This document shows positions 15,415 to 53,298 of a DNA stretch of 53,298 nt, in pieces. The position numbers and the translations under genes were made by a program. Position 1 is the stretch's first letter; the number at the start of each line of letters is the position of its first letter. Below the pieces are notes generated by a model. It did no database searches. It was not told the DNA's origin and saw only the letters and a program-made list of their open reading frames with translations. Source of the DNA: Rhodopila globiformis (lineage in GTDB: Bacteria > Pseudomonadota > Alphaproteobacteria > Acetobacterales > Acetobacteraceae); assembly GCF_002937115.1 (NCBI RefSeq), contig NZ_NHRY01000243.1:1-53298 (forward strand), given 5' to 3'.

Positions 15415-16815
15415 TCACCCCACGCGAAAATTCCCGAACTGCCAGGGGCACGACGCATCGACGGCTTCCGGGAACAGCAGCCCGCGGTCCAGCAGCGGGG
15501 TCCAGTCGCTGTAGGCGCCCGCCATGTCGCCCAGATAAGGCTCGGCCACCGCCAGCACCCGCTCATGATCCAGGTGGTCGGCCTCCACGGCGCCGGCGCG
15601 CGGGTTCTCGATCGCCCAGACCAGGCCGCCCAGCACCGCCGCCGTCACCTGCAGGCTGGTGGCGTTGTTGTGCGGCGCCAGGGCGCGGGCCTGCTCGATC
15701 GACAGCCGCGAGCCGTACCAGTAGGCGCCCTTGGCGTGCCCCATCAGCAGCACGCCCAGCTCGTCGATGCCGGAGACGATCTCGTCCATCATCAGCCGCT
15801 GCGTCGGCTGCTGCCGCCAGTTGCATCCGGCCAGTTCATGCACCGACAACACCGCGTCGTCGCAGGGGTGATAGGCGTAGTGTACCGTCGGGCGGTACTG
15901 CACCGTGCCAGCCTCGACCACGGAATAGTAGTCGGCGATCGAGATCGACTCGTTGTGGGTGACCAGGAAGCCGTGCAGCGGGCCGGCCAGCGGCGTCCAG
16001 GTGCGCACCCGCGTCCCGGCGCCCGGGCGCAGCAGGTAGATCGCCGCGTCGCAGCCGAACTCGTGGCGGCGCGCGTCCGGCGGCATGACCTTCTCGTGCG
16101 TGCCCCAGCCCAGTTCGCTCGGCTGGCAGCCCTCGCCGACGAAGCCGTCGATCGACCAGGTGTTGACGAACTCGCCCGGCTGCTTGGGCATCGATGCGAG
16201 CTGGGTGTCGCGCTCGGCGATGTGGATCACCTTGACGCCCAGGCCGCGCGACAGCGCCGCCCAGCCCGCCCGTGTCGCCGGGACATCCGTCTCGACACCC
16301 GTATCGCGCGCGATGTGCAGCAGCGCCCGCTTGACGAAATGCGACACCAGGCCGGGATTGGCGCCGTGCGTCAGCACCGCCGTCGGGCCGGGCTCGCCGG
16401 CCAGGGCCAGCGCGCTCTCGCGCAGCGCGTAGTTGGAGCGCTGCGACGGCGTCAGCGACGGATCGGTGTAGCCGCCGGCCCAGGGCTCGATGCAGGTGTC
16501 CAGGTACAGCGCGCCGCGCTCGCGGGCGAAGGCGATCAGCGCGACCGAGGAGACGTCCACGCTCAGATTGAGCAGGAAGTCTCCGGCGCCGAGCAGCGGG
16601 GTCAGCACGTCGCGGTAATTGTCGCGCGTCAGGGGCAGCACGGTGAACGGGATGCCGTATTCCGCGGCAATGTCCTGCCCGCGCGGGTCGCCGGACACGA
16701 TGGTGATGTTCTCCCGCGGCATGTCGATATGGCGGAGGATCAGCGGCATGACTCCCTGGCCAATGCTGCCGAAGCCGAGCATGACGAGGCGGCCGCCGAA
16801 AGCGACGTGTTTCAT
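15415..16815 (-). CDS. hss: Homospermidine synthase
   Basis: NAD-dependent enzyme that makes sym-homospermidine from two putrescines, or from putrescine plus spermidine. It has an N-terminal Rossmann motif (MLGFGSIGQGVMPLI, about 12-26), then LSVDVSSVALIAFARERGALYLDTCIEPW-type sequence of the saccharopine-dehydrogenase-like fold, and VLTHGANPGLVSHFVK, which is conserved in Hss. Its 466 residues match the roughly 470-residue bacterial enzymes. It lies downstream of an ornithine decarboxylase on the same strand, which supplies its substrate. A 9-bp-stem hairpin lies just before its start. Confidence 0.92.
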   Translation of the reverse strand: MKHVAFGGRLVMLGFGSIGQGVMPLILRHIDMPRENITIVSGDPRGQDIAAEYGIPFTVLPLTRDNYRDVLTPLLGAGDFLLNLSVDVSSVALIAFARERGALYLDTCIEPWAGGYTDPSLTPSQRSNYALRESALALAGEPGPTAVLTHGANPGLVSHFVKRALLHIARDTGVETDVPATRAGWAALSRGLGVKVIHIAERDTQLASMPKQPGEFVNTWSIDGFVGEGCQPSELGWGTHEKVMPPDARRHEFGCDAAIYLLRPGAGTRVRTWTPLAGPLHGFLVTHNESISIADYYSVVEAGTVQYRPTVHYAYHPCDDAVLSVHELAGCNWRQQPTQRLMMDEIVSGIDELGVLLMGHAKGAYWYGSRLSIEQARALAPHNNATSLQVTAAVLGGLVWAIENPRAGAVEADHLDHERVLAVAEPYLGDMAGAYSDWTPLLDRGLLFPEAVDASCPWQFGNFRVG

Positions 16816-16848
16816 TGATCGAATACCCTTACAAATACGAGCATGCGG

Positions 16849-32624: not shown

Positions 32625-34046
32625 CTAGGCGCGGCCGTAGGTATCCTCCAGCCGGACGATGTCATCCTCGCCCAGATAGGCCCCGGACTGCACCTCGATC
32701 AGCGTCAACGGAATCTTGCCTGGGTTCTCCAGCCGGTGGACGCAGCCCAGCGGCAGGTAGACGCTCTCGTTTTCCCGCACGATCAGGGTTTCCGCATCGC
32801 GGGTGACCCGGGCGGTGCCGTTCACCACCACCCAGTGCTCGGCACGGTGGAAATGGCTCTGCAGCGACAACTGCCGGCCGGGCGACACGACGATGCGCTT
32901 CACCTGGAACCGCTCGCCCTGGATCAGGCATTCGTAGTAGCCCCAGGGCCGATAGCAGCGGTTGTGCGCCACCGCTTCCGTTCGGCGGGCGGCCTTCAGG
33001 CGCTCGACGATCTTTTTCACGTCCTGCGCCTGGCCGCGATGCATCGCCAGCACGGCGTCCTCGGTCACCACCACGACCGCATCCCTCAGGCCGACGACCG
33101 CGGCCAGCATGCCGTCGCTGCGGACATAGCAGTTCTCGGCGCCTTCCAGCACCACGTCGCCCAGCGCGACGTTGCCGCGGGCGTCCTTCTCGCCCAGTTC
33201 CCACAACGCGCCCCAGCTGCCGACATCCGACCAGCCCAGGGCGGCCGGCACCACCGCGGCGCGGCTGGTGCGTTCCGCCACGGCGTAGTCGATGCTGATC
33301 GACGGGCAGGCCTTGAACGCCTCGGTCTCCAGCCGGATGAAATCCAGGTCGTCCTGCCGGTTGGCCATGGCCTGGCGGACCCGCGGCAGGACGTCGGGGG
33401 CGTGCGTCTCCAGCTCGCGCAGCAGGGTGCGGGCGGTGAAGACGAACATGCCGGAGTTCCACAGATGCCGTCCGCTGGCGACGAAACGCTCGGCCGTGGC
33501 GGCGTCCGGCTTCTCCAGGAAGCGGGCGACGCCATAGACGCCATCGGCCGGCAGCGGATCGCCGAGCTCGATATAGCCGTAGCCGGTTTCCGGCGCCGTC
33601 GGCTGCATGCCGAAGGTCACCACATAGCCCTCACGCGCCGCCGCCGCCGCCGCGTCCAGGGCGCGCCGCAGCGCCGCAGTATCGGTGATCGACGAATCGG
33701 CCGCCATCATCCACAGCACCGCGTCCGGGTCATCCTCCGCCACCAGCAACGCCGCGGCGGTGATCGCCGGCGCGCTGTTGCGGCCAATCGGCTCCAGCAG
33801 GATGCGCGGCGTGCGGATGCCGGCGTCGCGCAGCTGCTCGGCGATCAGGAACCGGTGCTCGTTGTTGCAGACCACAATCGGCGGGGCGAAGCCCGGGCCG
33901 TCGGCACGCAGGGCGGTTTCCTGCATCAGCGTCCGCTCCGACACCAGCGGCCAGAGCTGCTTGGGAAAGCTTTCCCGCGAGACCGGCCACAGCCGCGTGC
34001 CGGAGCCGCCGGACAGGATAACGGGTACGATGCGATGTTCGGTCAT
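32625..34046 (-). CDS. manC: Mannose-1-phosphate guanylyltransferase / mannose-6-phosphate isomerase
   Basis: Bifunctional type-II enzyme making GDP-mannose for surface polysaccharides. The N-terminal nucleotidyltransferase has GGSGTRLW (13-20) and SFPKQ. The C-terminal cupin carries the type-II isomerase motif QSHFHRAEHWVVVNGTA. At 473 residues it is full length. The ATG at 34046 gives MTEHRIVPVILSGG, the family start. It is divergent from hppA across a 270-bp region. It may feed the glycan genes at 40-45 kb, but no other GDP-mannose gene is nearby. Confidence 0.95.
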   Translation of the reverse strand: MTEHRIVPVILSGGSGTRLWPVSRESFPKQLWPLVSERTLMQETALRADGPGFAPPIVVCNNEHRFLIAEQLRDAGIRTPRILLEPIGRNSAPAITAAALLVAEDDPDAVLWMMAADSSITDTAALRRALDAAAAAAREGYVVTFGMQPTAPETGYGYIELGDPLPADGVYGVARFLEKPDAATAERFVASGRHLWNSGMFVFTARTLLRELETHAPDVLPRVRQAMANRQDDLDFIRLETEAFKACPSISIDYAVAERTSRAAVVPAALGWSDVGSWGALWELGEKDARGNVALGDVVLEGAENCYVRSDGMLAAVVGLRDAVVVVTEDAVLAMHRGQAQDVKKIVERLKAARRTEAVAHNRCYRPWGYYECLIQGERFQVKRIVVSPGRQLSLQSHFHRAEHWVVVNGTARVTRDAETLIVRENESVYLPLGCVHRLENPGKIPLTLIEVQSGAYLGEDDIVRLEDTYGRA

Positions 34047-41484: not shown

Positions 41485-41588
41485 AACTTATGCAATGCCG
41501 CCGCCCGATGTCGTGACGATCACAACTGGAAGAGCCGTGGCCCGATGAACCGAATCAGGTCCGCCCGAAGCTCTTTCCTGCCGTTTCG

Positions 41589-42659
41589 TTAGCGGTCCAG
41601 AGCTTCCTCGTCGCACATGACGGCGATGGCTTCGCCGATGGCAATCTCTTGTTCGGACGACATGGCCTGGGAATCCTTCCGGACAGGAGGTGCCTCCGGC
41701 ACGGCCTGCGCATAATGTTGCATGAACAGTTCCATGACCCGGCTGACGCCTTCCTCGGTCACCGACCGAAGATCAGCCGCGAAGTATTTGCCACGGGCAT
41801 GCTGGCCCGTGATGATTTCATAGGACGGAAAATAGGCGATATTCTCATCCTTGTCCGCAATCTCCTGCGCGGCGACGCGCAGGACGGACTTCGAGTAGGT
41901 TGTCGAGACGATCACGCTTCTGTCCGCGGCCGTGGCAACCAGAGGAACAGGTGAGACGGTCAGGATAAAGCGGCTTGCCGGATTACGGACCCGGATGAAT
42001 TCGATTGCTTCGCGCAGATCCGCACAGACCTCGGCCACGGTCAGGTTCACAAACCGGTGGCGTCGCTCATCGAAGGTCCCGCCCGCTACGCCCGGACAGA
42101 CGGGATATACGGAACCGTCCTCCTCCGAGGCCCAGGTTTCCGTCAGCCCGAGCGTGAAGACAAAAACATCCAGTTCCTCGATAGCCCGCCGAACCGCCGC
42201 AAAATGCTGCTGTCGATCAGCAAGGTATTCGGCGAGAGATGCAAAGCCGTCGGGCTGTATCTGAGGGCGATATGGATCGACGAGAGAGCCGTTCTTTTTG
42301 TGCCAGACATCTTCCACCGGCTGAAACAGGCCATAGGCCCGCTTCAGAAGCTGAAGAAGCTGGCGCGACGTATAGATGTTGCCATATCTCGCCGTGAACA
42401 GACCGTATCCGTATTCGGCAGCCAGATTTCCGGGAATAACCGGATTTTCTCTTTCAGAGACGAAATAGTTGAAGCCTGACATGGCCAGGTGTCTTGCGAT
42501 ATGCTGCGCAAAGCAGCTTCCGGCGGTCGCCACGCGATCCATCTGGTTGATGTGGAACTTGCCCCGTACAACCGGATCGACCTTGTCGGCGGGGACTTCA
42601 GCGACCGAGCGCTTCCAGAAACTCGCTGCGGGAAGGTTCCGATAGGGATGATCGCTCAC
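41589..42659 (-). CDS. GSCFA-domain protein
   Basis: A 356-residue member of the GSCFA family, related to SGNH/GDSL esterases, with the name-giving motif at 47-51 in ATAGSCFAQHIARHL and conserved FVFTLGLTETWASEEDGSVYPVCPG and FILTVSPVPLVATA. GSCFA proteins occur in polysaccharide loci and may remove or transfer O-acyl groups; no biochemical role is certain. Its start overlaps the stop of the SGNH-like gene by 4 bp, implying the two work together. Confidence 0.88.
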   Translation of the reverse strand: MSDHPYRNLPAASFWKRSVAEVPADKVDPVVRGKFHINQMDRVATAGSCFAQHIARHLAMSGFNYFVSERENPVIPGNLAAEYGYGLFTARYGNIYTSRQLLQLLKRAYGLFQPVEDVWHKKNGSLVDPYRPQIQPDGFASLAEYLADRQQHFAAVRRAIEELDVFVFTLGLTETWASEEDGSVYPVCPGVAGGTFDERRHRFVNLTVAEVCADLREAIEFIRVRNPASRFILTVSPVPLVATAADRSVIVSTTYSKSVLRVAAQEIADKDENIAYFPSYEIITGQHARGKYFAADLRSVTEEGVSRVMELFMQHYAQAVPEAPPVRKDSQAMSSEQEIAIGEAIAVMCDEEALDR

Positions 42660-49085: not shown

Positions 49086-49472
49086 TCAGGGCTCGGAAAC
49101 GGCTATCCCCGCTGTGGTGGCGCCCTTGATCAGCCCGAGGTCGAACGTCACGAACCGTTCTGCTGTCCGCCCGGACGCAAGGTGCAGCGCGTCGGCGAAA
49201 TCCAGGTTCGCGCGGTTCCATTCCAGCGCCTGCCGCACCGCCGGTTCATCCTCGCACCGCACATTGGGCAGCGACAGCAACGACTCGAAGGCGCGGATGA
49301 TCGGCAGGCGCTCCAGCCGGTACAGCCGCCGCAGCACCCATTCGGCTTCCAGCAGCACCGTTTTCGGCAGGAAGACCGTCTCGGTTTCAAACAGCCGGCG
49401 GGCCTGTTCCGTCTGCCGCGGCTCGTCCGCCGTCAGCAGGCGGACGATGATGTTAGTATCGGCCGCGATCAC
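49086..49472 (-). CDS. PIN-domain toxin VapC inserted in the catabolic operon
   Basis: A 128-residue PIN RNase beginning at GTG 49472: VIAADTNIIVRLLTADEP (Asp5), LEAEWVLRRLYRL (Glu), LDFADALHLA (Asp) and FVTFDLGL (Asp). It overlaps the antitoxin by 20 bp. It lies between the SDR and an amidohydrolase of the oxygenase operon, all on one strand. Confidence 0.88.
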   Translation of the reverse strand: MIAADTNIIVRLLTADEPRQTEQARRLFETETVFLPKTVLLEAEWVLRRLYRLERLPIIRAFESLLSLPNVRCEDEPAVRQALEWNRANLDFADALHLASGRTAERFVTFDLGLIKGATTAGIAVSEP

Positions 49473-49725
49473 GGCGGTCGCGCAACTCAGCGGCGATGGC
49501 GTCATCCATCTCTGCGATGCTGCGCGCCGAACCTTTCACCGGCAGGCAGCCGACCACATCCTCCAGCCGGCTGGGCTGGCCTTTCCGGATCGGCCGCAGC
49601 AGTACGCCGTCGCCGGTATTCTCGACCGAAAAATCGGTGCCGGGCCCCCAGCGATGCGTATCCCGCACCGCCTTGGGCAGGATGATCTGGCCTTTCGAGG
49701 AGAGCCGGGTGGTTTCCATGCTCAT
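49453..49725 (-). CDS. AbrB/VapB-type antitoxin
   Basis: A 90-residue protein with SpoVT/AbrB N-terminal fold: TTRLSSKGQIILPKAVRD (about 5-22), a central GTDFSVENTGDGVLLRPI and an acidic C-terminal tail (AEMDDAIAAELRDRRDRGRY). Starts at ATG 49725; 49719 is an alternative. Just upstream, two copies of GGTAAG 10 bp apart (49729-49734, 49739-49744) and a TTGACA hexamer on the minus strand (49750-49755) may form its promoter and operator. That hexamer overlaps the stop of the next gene. Confidence 0.85.
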   Translation of the reverse strand: MSMETTRLSSKGQIILPKAVRDTHRWGPGTDFSVENTGDGVLLRPIRKGQPSRLEDVVGCLPVKGSARSIAEMDDAIAAELRDRRDRGRY

Positions 49726-49751
49726 CGAGGTAAGGCGTGGTAAGATGTATG

Positions 49752-50681
49752 TCAAGCCTTCGGCGGCAATGTGATCCGGTAGAATGCCAAGGCATTGTCG
49801 GCAAACAGCTTGCACTGATCCTCCGGCGGCAGGCCGGCGGTGACGTCCTTGAACTGCGTGTAGATCCAGTTCCAACTCGCCTTGACCCCGTCCACCGGAT
49901 AGTTCGAGGCGAACATGCACCGATCCACGCCGAACATGCCGATGGTCTCACGGATCACCGCGCCGTTGACTTGCAACGTCCAGGGCTGTCCCTTAACCGT
50001 CAGGCCGGAGATCTTGCACCAGACATGCGGGCAGGACGCCAGCGCCTCCATTCCCCGCCGCCACACCGCAAGCTGCTCCTTCGAGCGGTCCAGCGGATAG
50101 CCGGTGTGGTTCAGCACGATACGCAGCCCGGGATGCTCGCGGCAGACTTCGGCGGCTTCCTCCAGATGGTACCACGGCACGCGCAGGTCCCAGGACAGGC
50201 CGTATTTCGCCAGCAGGCCCAGGCCCTTGCGCCAGGCCGGGTCTTGCAGGCTGCGCTTTTCGCCGCGCACGGACTCCCCGGGTCCTGACGCGATCACCGG
50301 CTTGGTGCGGATGCCGCGGACCAGCGGATTGGCCGCCTGTGCCGCGATGATCTCCTCGGCGTCCGGCGTATCGACCCAGGCGTGGGCGACGATGGCGTTC
50401 GGCATCCCGGTCTCCGCCGCGATGCGGGTCAGCCATTCGGTTTCCGCGAGTTGCTGGCTGCGGTCGGCCTCGGCCTCGATGTGGACGGTAGCGATGACGG
50501 TGTGCAGGGCCGTGTCGCGGCGGTACTCGGCTGGCAGGTAGCTGCGCCGCAGGCGGGAATAGTCGCCCAGCCAGAGGTGCTCGCCACTCGCCAGCCAGGG
50601 GTAGCGTAACGCGCCCTCCAGGTTCCACAGGTGGTGGTGGGCATCGACAATCGGCAGGTCCTTGTCCGTCTCGACCGGCAA
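49752..50681 (-). CDS. Amidohydrolase-2 family lactonase/hydrolase-like protein
   Basis: A 309-residue TIM-barrel hydrolase of the L-fuconolactonase/2-pyrone-4,6-dicarboxylate hydrolase-like group. DAHHHLWNLEG near residue 13 carries the HxH; RIVLNHTGYP and FASNYPVDG supply later ligands. It is distinct from the ACMSD-like pair in the same operon (true HxH rather than DxH). It may open a lactone formed after ring cleavage. Closely spaced after the oxygenase beta gene (26 bp). Confidence 0.87.
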   Translation of the reverse strand: MPVETDKDLPIVDAHHHLWNLEGALRYPWLASGEHLWLGDYSRLRRSYLPAEYRRDTALHTVIATVHIEAEADRSQQLAETEWLTRIAAETGMPNAIVAHAWVDTPDAEEIIAAQAANPLVRGIRTKPVIASGPGESVRGEKRSLQDPAWRKGLGLLAKYGLSWDLRVPWYHLEEAAEVCREHPGLRIVLNHTGYPLDRSKEQLAVWRRGMEALASCPHVWCKISGLTVKGQPWTLQVNGAVIRETIGMFGVDRCMFASNYPVDGVKASWNWIYTQFKDVTAGLPPEDQCKLFADNALAFYRITLPPKA

Positions 50682-52391: not shown

Positions 52392-52459
52392 GCGATCCTC
52401 CCGTGGTTTTGCGGGAGAGGCTAGACCCCGGGACGGATGCTGACAAACCCGGCGTCGTT

Positions 52460-52900
52460 TCAGCGTGCCGGACCGTAAAGCTGCCCGGCCCGCGTCTCGA
52501 AGCCCTTCACCGTCGTCGCCAGCATCTCCGGCAGGGCCGCGCCCAATCCCAGGCGCAGCAGGCCTGAACGGACCTCATAGGTGGCATGGCACCCGAGGCG
52601 CGTGCCGCCGGATGCGATGGGCGTGAAATGCCACGCCTGGTCGAACATGCCGAACAGCGAGTCGTGGCAGACGACGCGCAGGCGCGTTGGCGGCTCCAGC
52701 AGCGCGCGGGTGCTGAATTTCAGCCGCAGAAATCCGAGGCGGACGACCTGCTCAACCCACAGTGTGTTGTCCTTCCGCCGCCGGATGCGGGCGGAGGCGA
52801 GATGATGCAGGAATTGCGGATAGCTTTCGATGTCGGCGACGAGGGCGAAGATCTGCTGCGGAGGATAGGGCAGATCGACCTGTGCGTGGTAGGTCGCCAT
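52460..52900 (-). CDS. COQ10/RatA-like START-domain protein
   Basis: A 146-residue polyketide-cyclase/START-fold protein: YHAQVDLPYPPQQIFALVADIESYPQFL at the N-terminus matches the coenzyme Q-binding COQ10 family start, followed by STRALLEPPTRLRV and a C-terminal helix ending VKGFETRAGQLYG. It binds ubiquinone-like lipids or acts in ribosome association (RatA). The ATG at 52900 is used; upstream ATGs (52939, 52945) are possible. It lies 68 bp upstream of the oxygenase alpha gene and may simply precede that operon. Confidence 0.85.
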   Translation of the reverse strand: MATYHAQVDLPYPPQQIFALVADIESYPQFLHHLASARIRRRKDNTLWVEQVVRLGFLRLKFSTRALLEPPTRLRVVCHDSLFGMFDQAWHFTPIASGGTRLGCHATYEVRSGLLRLGLGAALPEMLATTVKGFETRAGQLYGPAR

Positions 52901-53002
52901 GTCATCGCGGCCTGTAAACGATTCGGCGCTCTGGGCCATGCGCACTGACGGCCTTATATTGCCTTATCGTTATGACTTGTGACGAATTTCCCAGGTAAAG
53001 GC

Positions 53003-53020
53003 TGGGGAAGCCGCTCCCCA
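53003..53020. repeat. Isolated hairpin upstream of the array
   Basis: TGGGGA (53003-53008) pairs with TCCCCA (53015-53020). It lies 125 bp before the main hairpin array and may be the 5' part of the same RNA or an unrelated terminator-like element. Confidence 0.4.
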
Positions 53021-53145
53021 CGCTTTTGACTGGAATGACACGTATTAAATTGGGGGCAGCGCCGTCACGTTTGCCGGACGTCGCATCAATTTCTACGTTG
53101 CAACATAACCAATTCTCTGCCGCTTTGGCCGTACCGAGTAAATAT

Positions 53146-53298
53146 CCCCCGGCAGAGCCGGGGGCTTTATAGTGTTGGCCGCTCAAAGCGGCCGGGCGGG
53201 TCGCTGACGCGGCCCGTTGAGTGTGAGCCGCTCAAAGCGGCAAGCGGGACCGCTAACGCGGTCCCGGGTTCAGTTGGCCACTAAAGTGGCCGGTTCAG
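53146..53298 (+). ncRNA. Array of six hairpins, candidate structured RNA cut by the window edge
   Basis: Stems in order: CCCCCGGC/GCCGGGGG (53146-53164), GGCCGCT/AGCGGCC (53177-53193), GGGTCGC/GCGGCCC (53198-53215, one G-T pair, allowed only in RNA), GCCGCT/AGCGGC (53227-53241), GGGACCGC/GCGGTCCC (53246-53265) and GGCCACT/AGTGGCC (53276-53291). Stems 2, 4 and 6, and stems 3 and 5, repeat at about 49-nt steps with paired substitutions. No coding frame is credible here. It might be the RNA of a transposon-encoded nuclease (ωRNA/HEARO-like), a repeat cluster or another ncRNA; the orientation is not certain. Confidence 0.55.

Follow-up and report, generated by a model that had tools for sequence, protein, structure and literature searches.

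The last bases of the window, by which we mean the whole 53,298-nucleotide stretch of Rhodopila globiformis DNA analysed here (contig NZ_NHRY01000243.1), harbour an array of six hairpins that almost certainly makes up the right end (RE) of an IS200-type, tnpA-only insertion sequence together with its 3′ untranslated region. The element is of a known kind, and its end is seen here in an enlarged version, extended by a tandem unit; the new point is a complementarity between this right end and the leader of tnpA. The reading towards which we lean, with modest confidence, joins this identity to a long-range contact, in which the 3′ arm and tail of one hairpin, H2, would pair with the apex of the leader hairpin and dampen the production of TnpA.

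All six stems are located within the last 161 bases of the window (Table 1), and their assignment to a right end is based on homologous right ends found 3′ of tnpA in relatives. The first-pass annotation had reported six stems recurring at about 49-nt steps. All of them are present, and the spacing between H2 and H2′, and between H3 and H3′, amounts to 48-50 nt, giving two units of ~50 nt each. The fold of positions 53137-53298 reaches -92.5 kcal/mol as RNA (z -5.86) and -55.3 kcal/mol as DNA (z -7.48), with 0 of 200 shuffles as good in either case. The G-U pair noticed earlier in the third stem was also recovered (T53201-G53212). The exchange that had been read in both arms of the last stem (GGCCAC/GTGGCC) has to be given up, H4 being a separate hairpin rather than a mutated H2; since relatives show this separate hairpin beside the tnpA stop, the comparison within the array is no evidence for selection on pairing.

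Table 1. Features of the hairpin array and its surroundings at the edge of the window
Feature	Position	Strand	Remark
Host flank adjoining the right end	53128..53137	.	Base after TTTAC varies among copies
Right end and 3′ region of the IS200-type element	53138..53298	(-)	tnpA orientation; element runs beyond the contig edge
H1, terminal hairpin	53146..53164	(-)	Core identical to that of the left-end hairpin
H2, outer copy	53177..53193	(-)	Without leader-complementary tail
H3, outer copy	53197..53216	(-)	T-G (plus strand), C-A (tnpA strand)
Segment complementary to the tnpA leader hairpin apex	53219..53231	(-)	12/13 positions
H2′, inner copy	53227..53241	(-)	Leader-complementary segment in 3′ arm and tail
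H3′, inner copy	53245..53266	(-)	Fold and alignment of homologues
H4, hairpin right after the tnpA stop codon	53276..53291	(-)	Fold and alignment of homologues
Putative tnpA stop codon TGA	53295..53297	(-)	By comparison with intact relatives L030, L031/L156, L033/L154

The survey of the R. globiformis genome (7.25 Mb in 278 contigs) revealed at least 26 near-identical copies, that of the window included, together with four partial ones; these numbers are lower bounds, 40 of the 86 right-end and 40 of the 63 left-end first-look candidates having been scored. All 26 copies sit at contig ends and stop at one common base. The flanks beside 25 of the 26 right ends examined are all different, and the right ends terminate in ...TTTAC. 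A repeat that breaks the contigs and has a different flank at each copy is a mobile element, and its presence in many copies explains why the assembly is interrupted at each of them. With regard to the other end, the left-end hairpin, which forms the counterpart of H1, occurs at 34 places with at most two mismatches, 24 of them exact, and 23 contig ends share at least 176 bases covering left end, leader and tnpA start; one further contig end (C275) carries a broken left end. Each copy is split into a left-end contig and a right-end contig, the window edge being on the right-end side, where the break falls at the putative tnpA stop codon.

The tnpA gene itself should lie on the minus strand just beyond the contig edge, judging from its position in relatives. 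A protein search recovered its first 12 codons on the 23 contig ends, and 11 of the 12 residues are those of ISMex34 (E 3.1, the piece being very short). The Y1_Tnp domain, the core of TnpA, had no match in the R. globiformis assembly and matched in 6 of 14 control genomes. The stretch has partial matches in nine plasmid records, which cover at most 80% of it. In three of the four examined, from Achromobacter, Methylorubrum and Acidovorax, the match lies within ~26-31 nt of the point where an annotated IS200/IS605 transposase gene ends (3′ side), and beside this gene no tnpB is annotated; the fourth, from Rhizobium (L010), has no annotated tnpA at the match, and a decayed relative is visible in its sequence. 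Intact copies are present in a Rhodopila bin (L156) and an Acetobacteraceae bin (L154). Their TnpA proteins share 81% identity with that of ISMex34 and match Y1_Tnp at 1.4e-38 and 8e-39, respectively, and the NCBIfam IS200 transposase model scores 147.5 (L156) and 138.9 bits on relatives' TnpA, for a cut-off of 55. At least 560 relatives were found and 80 loci kept; the relatives' TnpA match Y1_Tnp at 1e-35 or better and are Y1 HUH transposases of about 130-155 residues, as in the IS200 group.

Along the tnpA strand, the order is target CTAA(C), the hairpin of the left end, that of the leader, tnpA, stop codon, H4-H3-H2-H1 and TTTAC, with one H2-H3 unit in intact relatives. An alignment of 38 elements, most of them proteobacterial or acidobacterial, shows that they share the arrangement H4-H3-H2-H1. 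The H2-H3 unit is doubled, resulting in six hairpins, in the window and in ten further family sequences, several of which are cut by contig ends, and this second unit is a feature of this Acetobacteraceae lineage. The six-hairpin elements of Rhodopila-like Acetobacteraceae (L030-L034, L039-L041, L035 and L180), some of them truncated at contig ends, possess the same doubled unit as the window, but their stem sequences differ, many being kept paired by double change. ISMex34, from the Methylorubrum extorquens AM1 plasmid p2META1 (NC_012809.1), and the IS200-type elements of Achromobacter pDCA-1 resemble the window's element in being tnpA-only, in having tnpA followed by H4-H3-H2-H1 and in sharing its terminal hairpin, whereas they carry one H2-H3 unit and the window two.

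In the R. globiformis genome, CTAAC abuts 24 of the 24 left ends read. On pDCA-1 (L009 2160-4165), two same-orientation copies of a relative interrupt one transporter gene, which is whole in Delftia pLME1. Comparison of the two occupied sites with these empty ones places the insertion directly 3′ of CTAG, with no duplication, the right end reading ...GGTTAC. For the copy in the window, the search yielded no empty site: its flank (52400-53136) matches in 10 of the 40 genomes searched, and the two long matches span the neighbouring gene only, not the junction.

Several variant copies were encountered. Four-hairpin or decayed copies coexist with six-hairpin ones in the R. globiformis genome (L013, G000:C269:4873-4950) and in the same genus (L042 and L046, G004). 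Three short copies of ~200 bp, namely, L014 (G000:C254, about 16640-16825), L015 (G000:C276, about 33210-33395) and L016 (G000:C252, about 41580-41765), have both IS200-type ends and lack tnpA; they hold H1 and an H2-like hairpin (GGCCCC/GGGGCC) without H3 or H4, and are non-autonomous, MITE- or PATE-like. In a Chitinilyticum copy (L155, right end 2433-2689), an extra ~150 bp with palindromes of their own is inserted between tnpA and H3.

The alignments indicate that the pairing of the hairpins is conserved by compensatory change. Among 38 four-hairpin elements, a set that excludes L012, L013, L042, L046 and truncated or degenerate right ends, 95.6% of cells are paired, and double-sided changes occur in 10 of 28 pairs compared with 2.3 +/- 1.0 in shuffles (0/500). 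The 11 window-type six-hairpin arrays have 96.9% of cells paired, in a count from which H2′, whose columns are unaligned, is excluded. Their covariation score is 0.132 versus 0.062, reached by 0 of 500 shuffles, and double-change pairs number 5 versus 3.0 (9/500), while further pair types are not above shuffles in these arrays (10 versus 10.2, 352/500). Both sets thereby bear out the earlier expectation that homologues conserve the stems, and the selection on pairing proposed in the first-pass annotation finds its support in double-sided changes between homologues, the internal comparison on which it had relied having been discarded. H1 keeps 8 of its 8 pairs across the 38 aligned right ends, one of them varying with a double change. 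By analogy with the family, it is probably the hairpin by which TnpA recognises the right end and cuts one DNA strand. In 29 of the 38 elements, one H3 position (A2 alignment columns 39 and 50) is C-A when read on the tnpA strand and T-G when read on the plus strand; it is Watson-Crick in 8 of the remaining 9, and the kept mismatch may be the sign of a bulge read by a protein or of an antisense-strand structure.

The leader of the window's tnpA is predicted to form a hairpin in which the GGAG ribosome site is paired (unpaired probability 0.01). The match between its apex and the right end is borderline in the window's own element, where it is reached by 3 of 60 shuffles and has a p of 0.062 in the first run of the second test described below. 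Among the leaders listed, most of those from Proteobacteria and Acidobacteria have GTGAGCCGC at the apex, and the arm of H2 with its tail reads GCGGCTCAC among the listed elements. In the Rhodopila relative L156, leader apex and H2 match over 15 of 15 Watson-Crick pairs. Other clades harbour different sequences that are again complementary, over 12 nt in Paenibacillus, 15 in Limosilactobacillus, 14 in Ligilactobacillus, 17 in Desulfosarcina, 15 in Rhizobium L192, 17 in Pseudodesulfovibrio and 23, with three mismatches, in Enterococcus. Among 33 hand-chosen elements, each compared with 60 shuffles, 21 have a match reached by at most 3 of the 60, and 19 of the 33 have the partner at the leader apex; in L155 and L162, the complementarity involves another site. 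Contact was absent at this cut in 12 of the 33, including Bradyrhizobium L116 and L117, L012, L187, L189-L191 and ISMex34, in which 19 of 60 shuffles reach the match, in contrast to the Achromobacter element (1/60).

A second test used 14 divergent elements, chosen greedily below 75% TnpA identity from 70 distinct TnpA and not phylogenetically independent. The leader matched the right end at p ≤ 0.05 in 8 of them, and in 9 of 14 on repeat (Fisher 2.3e-9), the difference being due to L207, which lies on the threshold (p 0.052 versus 0.05 in the two runs). The same leaders compared with three parts of tnpA and with downstream DNA gave 0, 0, 1 and 0 of 14, and at 60% TnpA identity the figures were 5 of 7 versus 0, 0, 1 and 0 of 7. 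Excluded from the 70 TnpA were ORFs that lack the motifs, ORFs in which no Met lies 3-23 residues ahead of the conserved W, and ORFs too close to a contig end; the window's element, absent from the 14 of the repeat run, is covered by the 33-element test and the first run. When the right end was reversed as a control, p ≤ 0.05 was obtained in 2 of 15 (L194 and L200; Fisher 0.17).

The shuffle null breaks palindromes and the control regions, being less hairpin-rich than the right end, are imperfectly matched to it; palindromes common to both ends may account for some of the signal. The matches in Firmicutes are not palindromic. Within the Firmicutes cluster, three positions have changed in a compensatory manner in 8 of the 13 rows with an anchor; these 8 were kept by pairing score and are favourable by selection. 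Two of the 15 members of the cluster have no anchor, and the rows dropped were L199, L212 and L218 (9-10 bp matches), L195 (11, two G-U) and L213 (weak). At gathering score, Rfam returned no family over leaders or right ends in 13 loci.

The means by which IS200 elements silence their transposase are understood in part. In the long-range contact that we propose, H2 (H2′ in the window) would pair through its 3′ arm and tail with the apex of the leader hairpin, which is predicted to cover the tnpA ribosome site already. If the apex is kept from pairing, the ribosome site, located with a crude motif, is predicted to be equally hidden in 12 of 14 leaders and freer in two (L168 and L192), so that in most cases the contact would amount to a kissing interaction with a leader that stays closed. 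It would keep the mRNA closed and silent, or form a double strand that gets cut, and H3 and H4 may serve as spacers, terminators or stabilisers. Across 15 elements, the net contact energy is estimated at between -10.4 and +2.8 kcal/mol, with +1.0 for the window's own. We can further propose, more tentatively, that IS200-group transposons of several phyla possess a compensatorily kept 5′-3′ switch, whereby the transcript would silence translation of its own or sister copies and limit copy number; the doubled H2-H3 would then be this lineage's way of dividing the two jobs of H2. If true, the pairing of leader and right end represents an extra layer beside the leader hairpin and antisense RNA. 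The functional claim stands close to an even balance, given the weak contact of the window's own element, the clades without contact and the lack of a strand bias: symmetric scoring of 44 distinct segment pairs counted 44 G-T versus 76 A-C positions, which gives no sign of selection on the sense RNA, and many of the 76 fall in long extensions.

This symmetry of G-T and A-C counts, which does not favour RNA, suits a rather unlikely alternative, in which the extra hairpins act as single-stranded DNA and provide more sites for TnpA binding or synapsis, while the complementarity helps the ends of the excised strand to meet, with no role for RNA. IS200/IS605 elements move as single strands and are recognised through hairpins (PMC6006769; here and below, statements on cited papers concern the accessible part of each), and the tnpA-less copies L014-L016 retain H1 and the H2-like hairpin, not H3 or H4. 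However, described members need one hairpin per end, and for a pure DNA role the complementary partner would sit in an unlikely spot, the apex of the mRNA leader hairpin over the ribosome site.

The hairpins might also form a transcription barrier or insulator, stopping or stabilising transcripts that come from the flank or from tnpA, the leader complementarity being a by-product of palindromes, which we regard as improbable. H1 is terminator-like on both strands (2 found versus 0.4 in shuffles, in a scan by consensus only), and H3, which pairs fully (T-G) when read on the plus strand, whereas 29 of 38 elements have C-A in the tnpA reading, would fit an antisense structure. The sequence nevertheless contains no proper U tract, and a barrier would leave unexplained the non-palindromic complementarity, such as TGTTCAAGCC/GGCTTGAACA, and the compensatory changes.

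Guide RNAs of IS605-type elements lie at the structured right end. The array occupies a similar place, yet that it is the scaffold of a guide RNA for an IscB- or TnpB-type nuclease is barely conceivable, the adjacent gene being tnpA, OrfB_IS605 being absent from the genome and Rfam giving no family at gathering score in the window. OrfB_IS605 (PF01385) had 0 matches in the R. globiformis genome and matched in 7 of 14 controls; the TnpB zinc-ribbon (PF07282) had one match below cut-off (22.5 versus 26.3 bits; L086, G000:C232:17493-17585), unrelated to the array. The HEARO search of this genome was empty and was uninformative, as the controls likewise matched nowhere. What the first-pass annotation had favoured, a structured RNA preceding an IscB or TnpB gene beyond the edge, is retained insofar as the array is conserved and structured, belongs to a mobile element and has a gene beyond the edge; relatives show that gene to be tnpA, and the array follows its stop codon. 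On these grounds the IscB/HEARO or TnpB guide RNA was rejected.

The same annotation had rightly set the array apart from REP clusters and CRISPR. A REP/BIME with TnpA-REP was rejected, since two relatives' proteins score 46.6 and 36.5 bits on REP_Tyr_transpos (cut-off 80) and are well above the cut-off of the IS200 model. So was a CRISPR array, as the two diverged units have no spacers and CRISPR-DR23 reaches 16.7 versus 45 bits. A phage origin was discarded as well, with no match among 50,697 phage records.

IS200 elements are widespread yet described as almost immobile (PMC12594629). In those of Salmonella and E. coli, a leader hairpin likewise sequesters the ribosome site of tnpA, and the regulation described comprises this hairpin, the antisense RNA art200 and a 5′ derived small RNA, the accessible part of the paper describing no contact with the right end (PMC12594629). 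A precedent for the leader contact is provided by icaR of Staphylococcus aureus, which is controlled by pairing between its 5′ and 3′ UTRs, making a double strand for cleavage; it differs in being a host gene, and its 3′-UTR pairs with the Shine-Dalgarno region itself (PMC3868564). Complementarity of leader and right end, which may be a counterpart of the icaR pairing, reaches p ≤ 0.05 in 8-9 of the 14 divergent elements, with an own p of 0.062 for the window's element, and is missing in 12 of the 33. In ISPpu9, which has the small RNAs Asr9 and Ssr9, RNA encoded 3′ of the transposase gene also helps to control a structured 5′ UTR, but this is a different insertion sequence, and the role proposed for Ssr9 is sequestration of the antisense RNA Asr9 rather than pairing with the leader (PMC8450116). 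Several hairpins at a right end are not new as such, since the IS605 of Halanaerobium hydrogeniformans has three potential hairpins in its 132-nt right end; these are competing or overlapping structures in a tnpB-bearing element, for which the accessible text describes neither a tandem unit nor a leader contact (PMC7290912). In the accessible parts of the literature searched, which also included PMC12323649 and did not extend to the main paper on IS200 repression (Ellis 2015, NAR), neither an IS200 leader complementarity with the right end nor this tandem array is described.

Elsewhere in the window, two adjacent small ORFs at 49086-49920 (-) resemble, by eye, a PIN-domain protein and an AbrB-type antitoxin, forming a VapBC-like pair.
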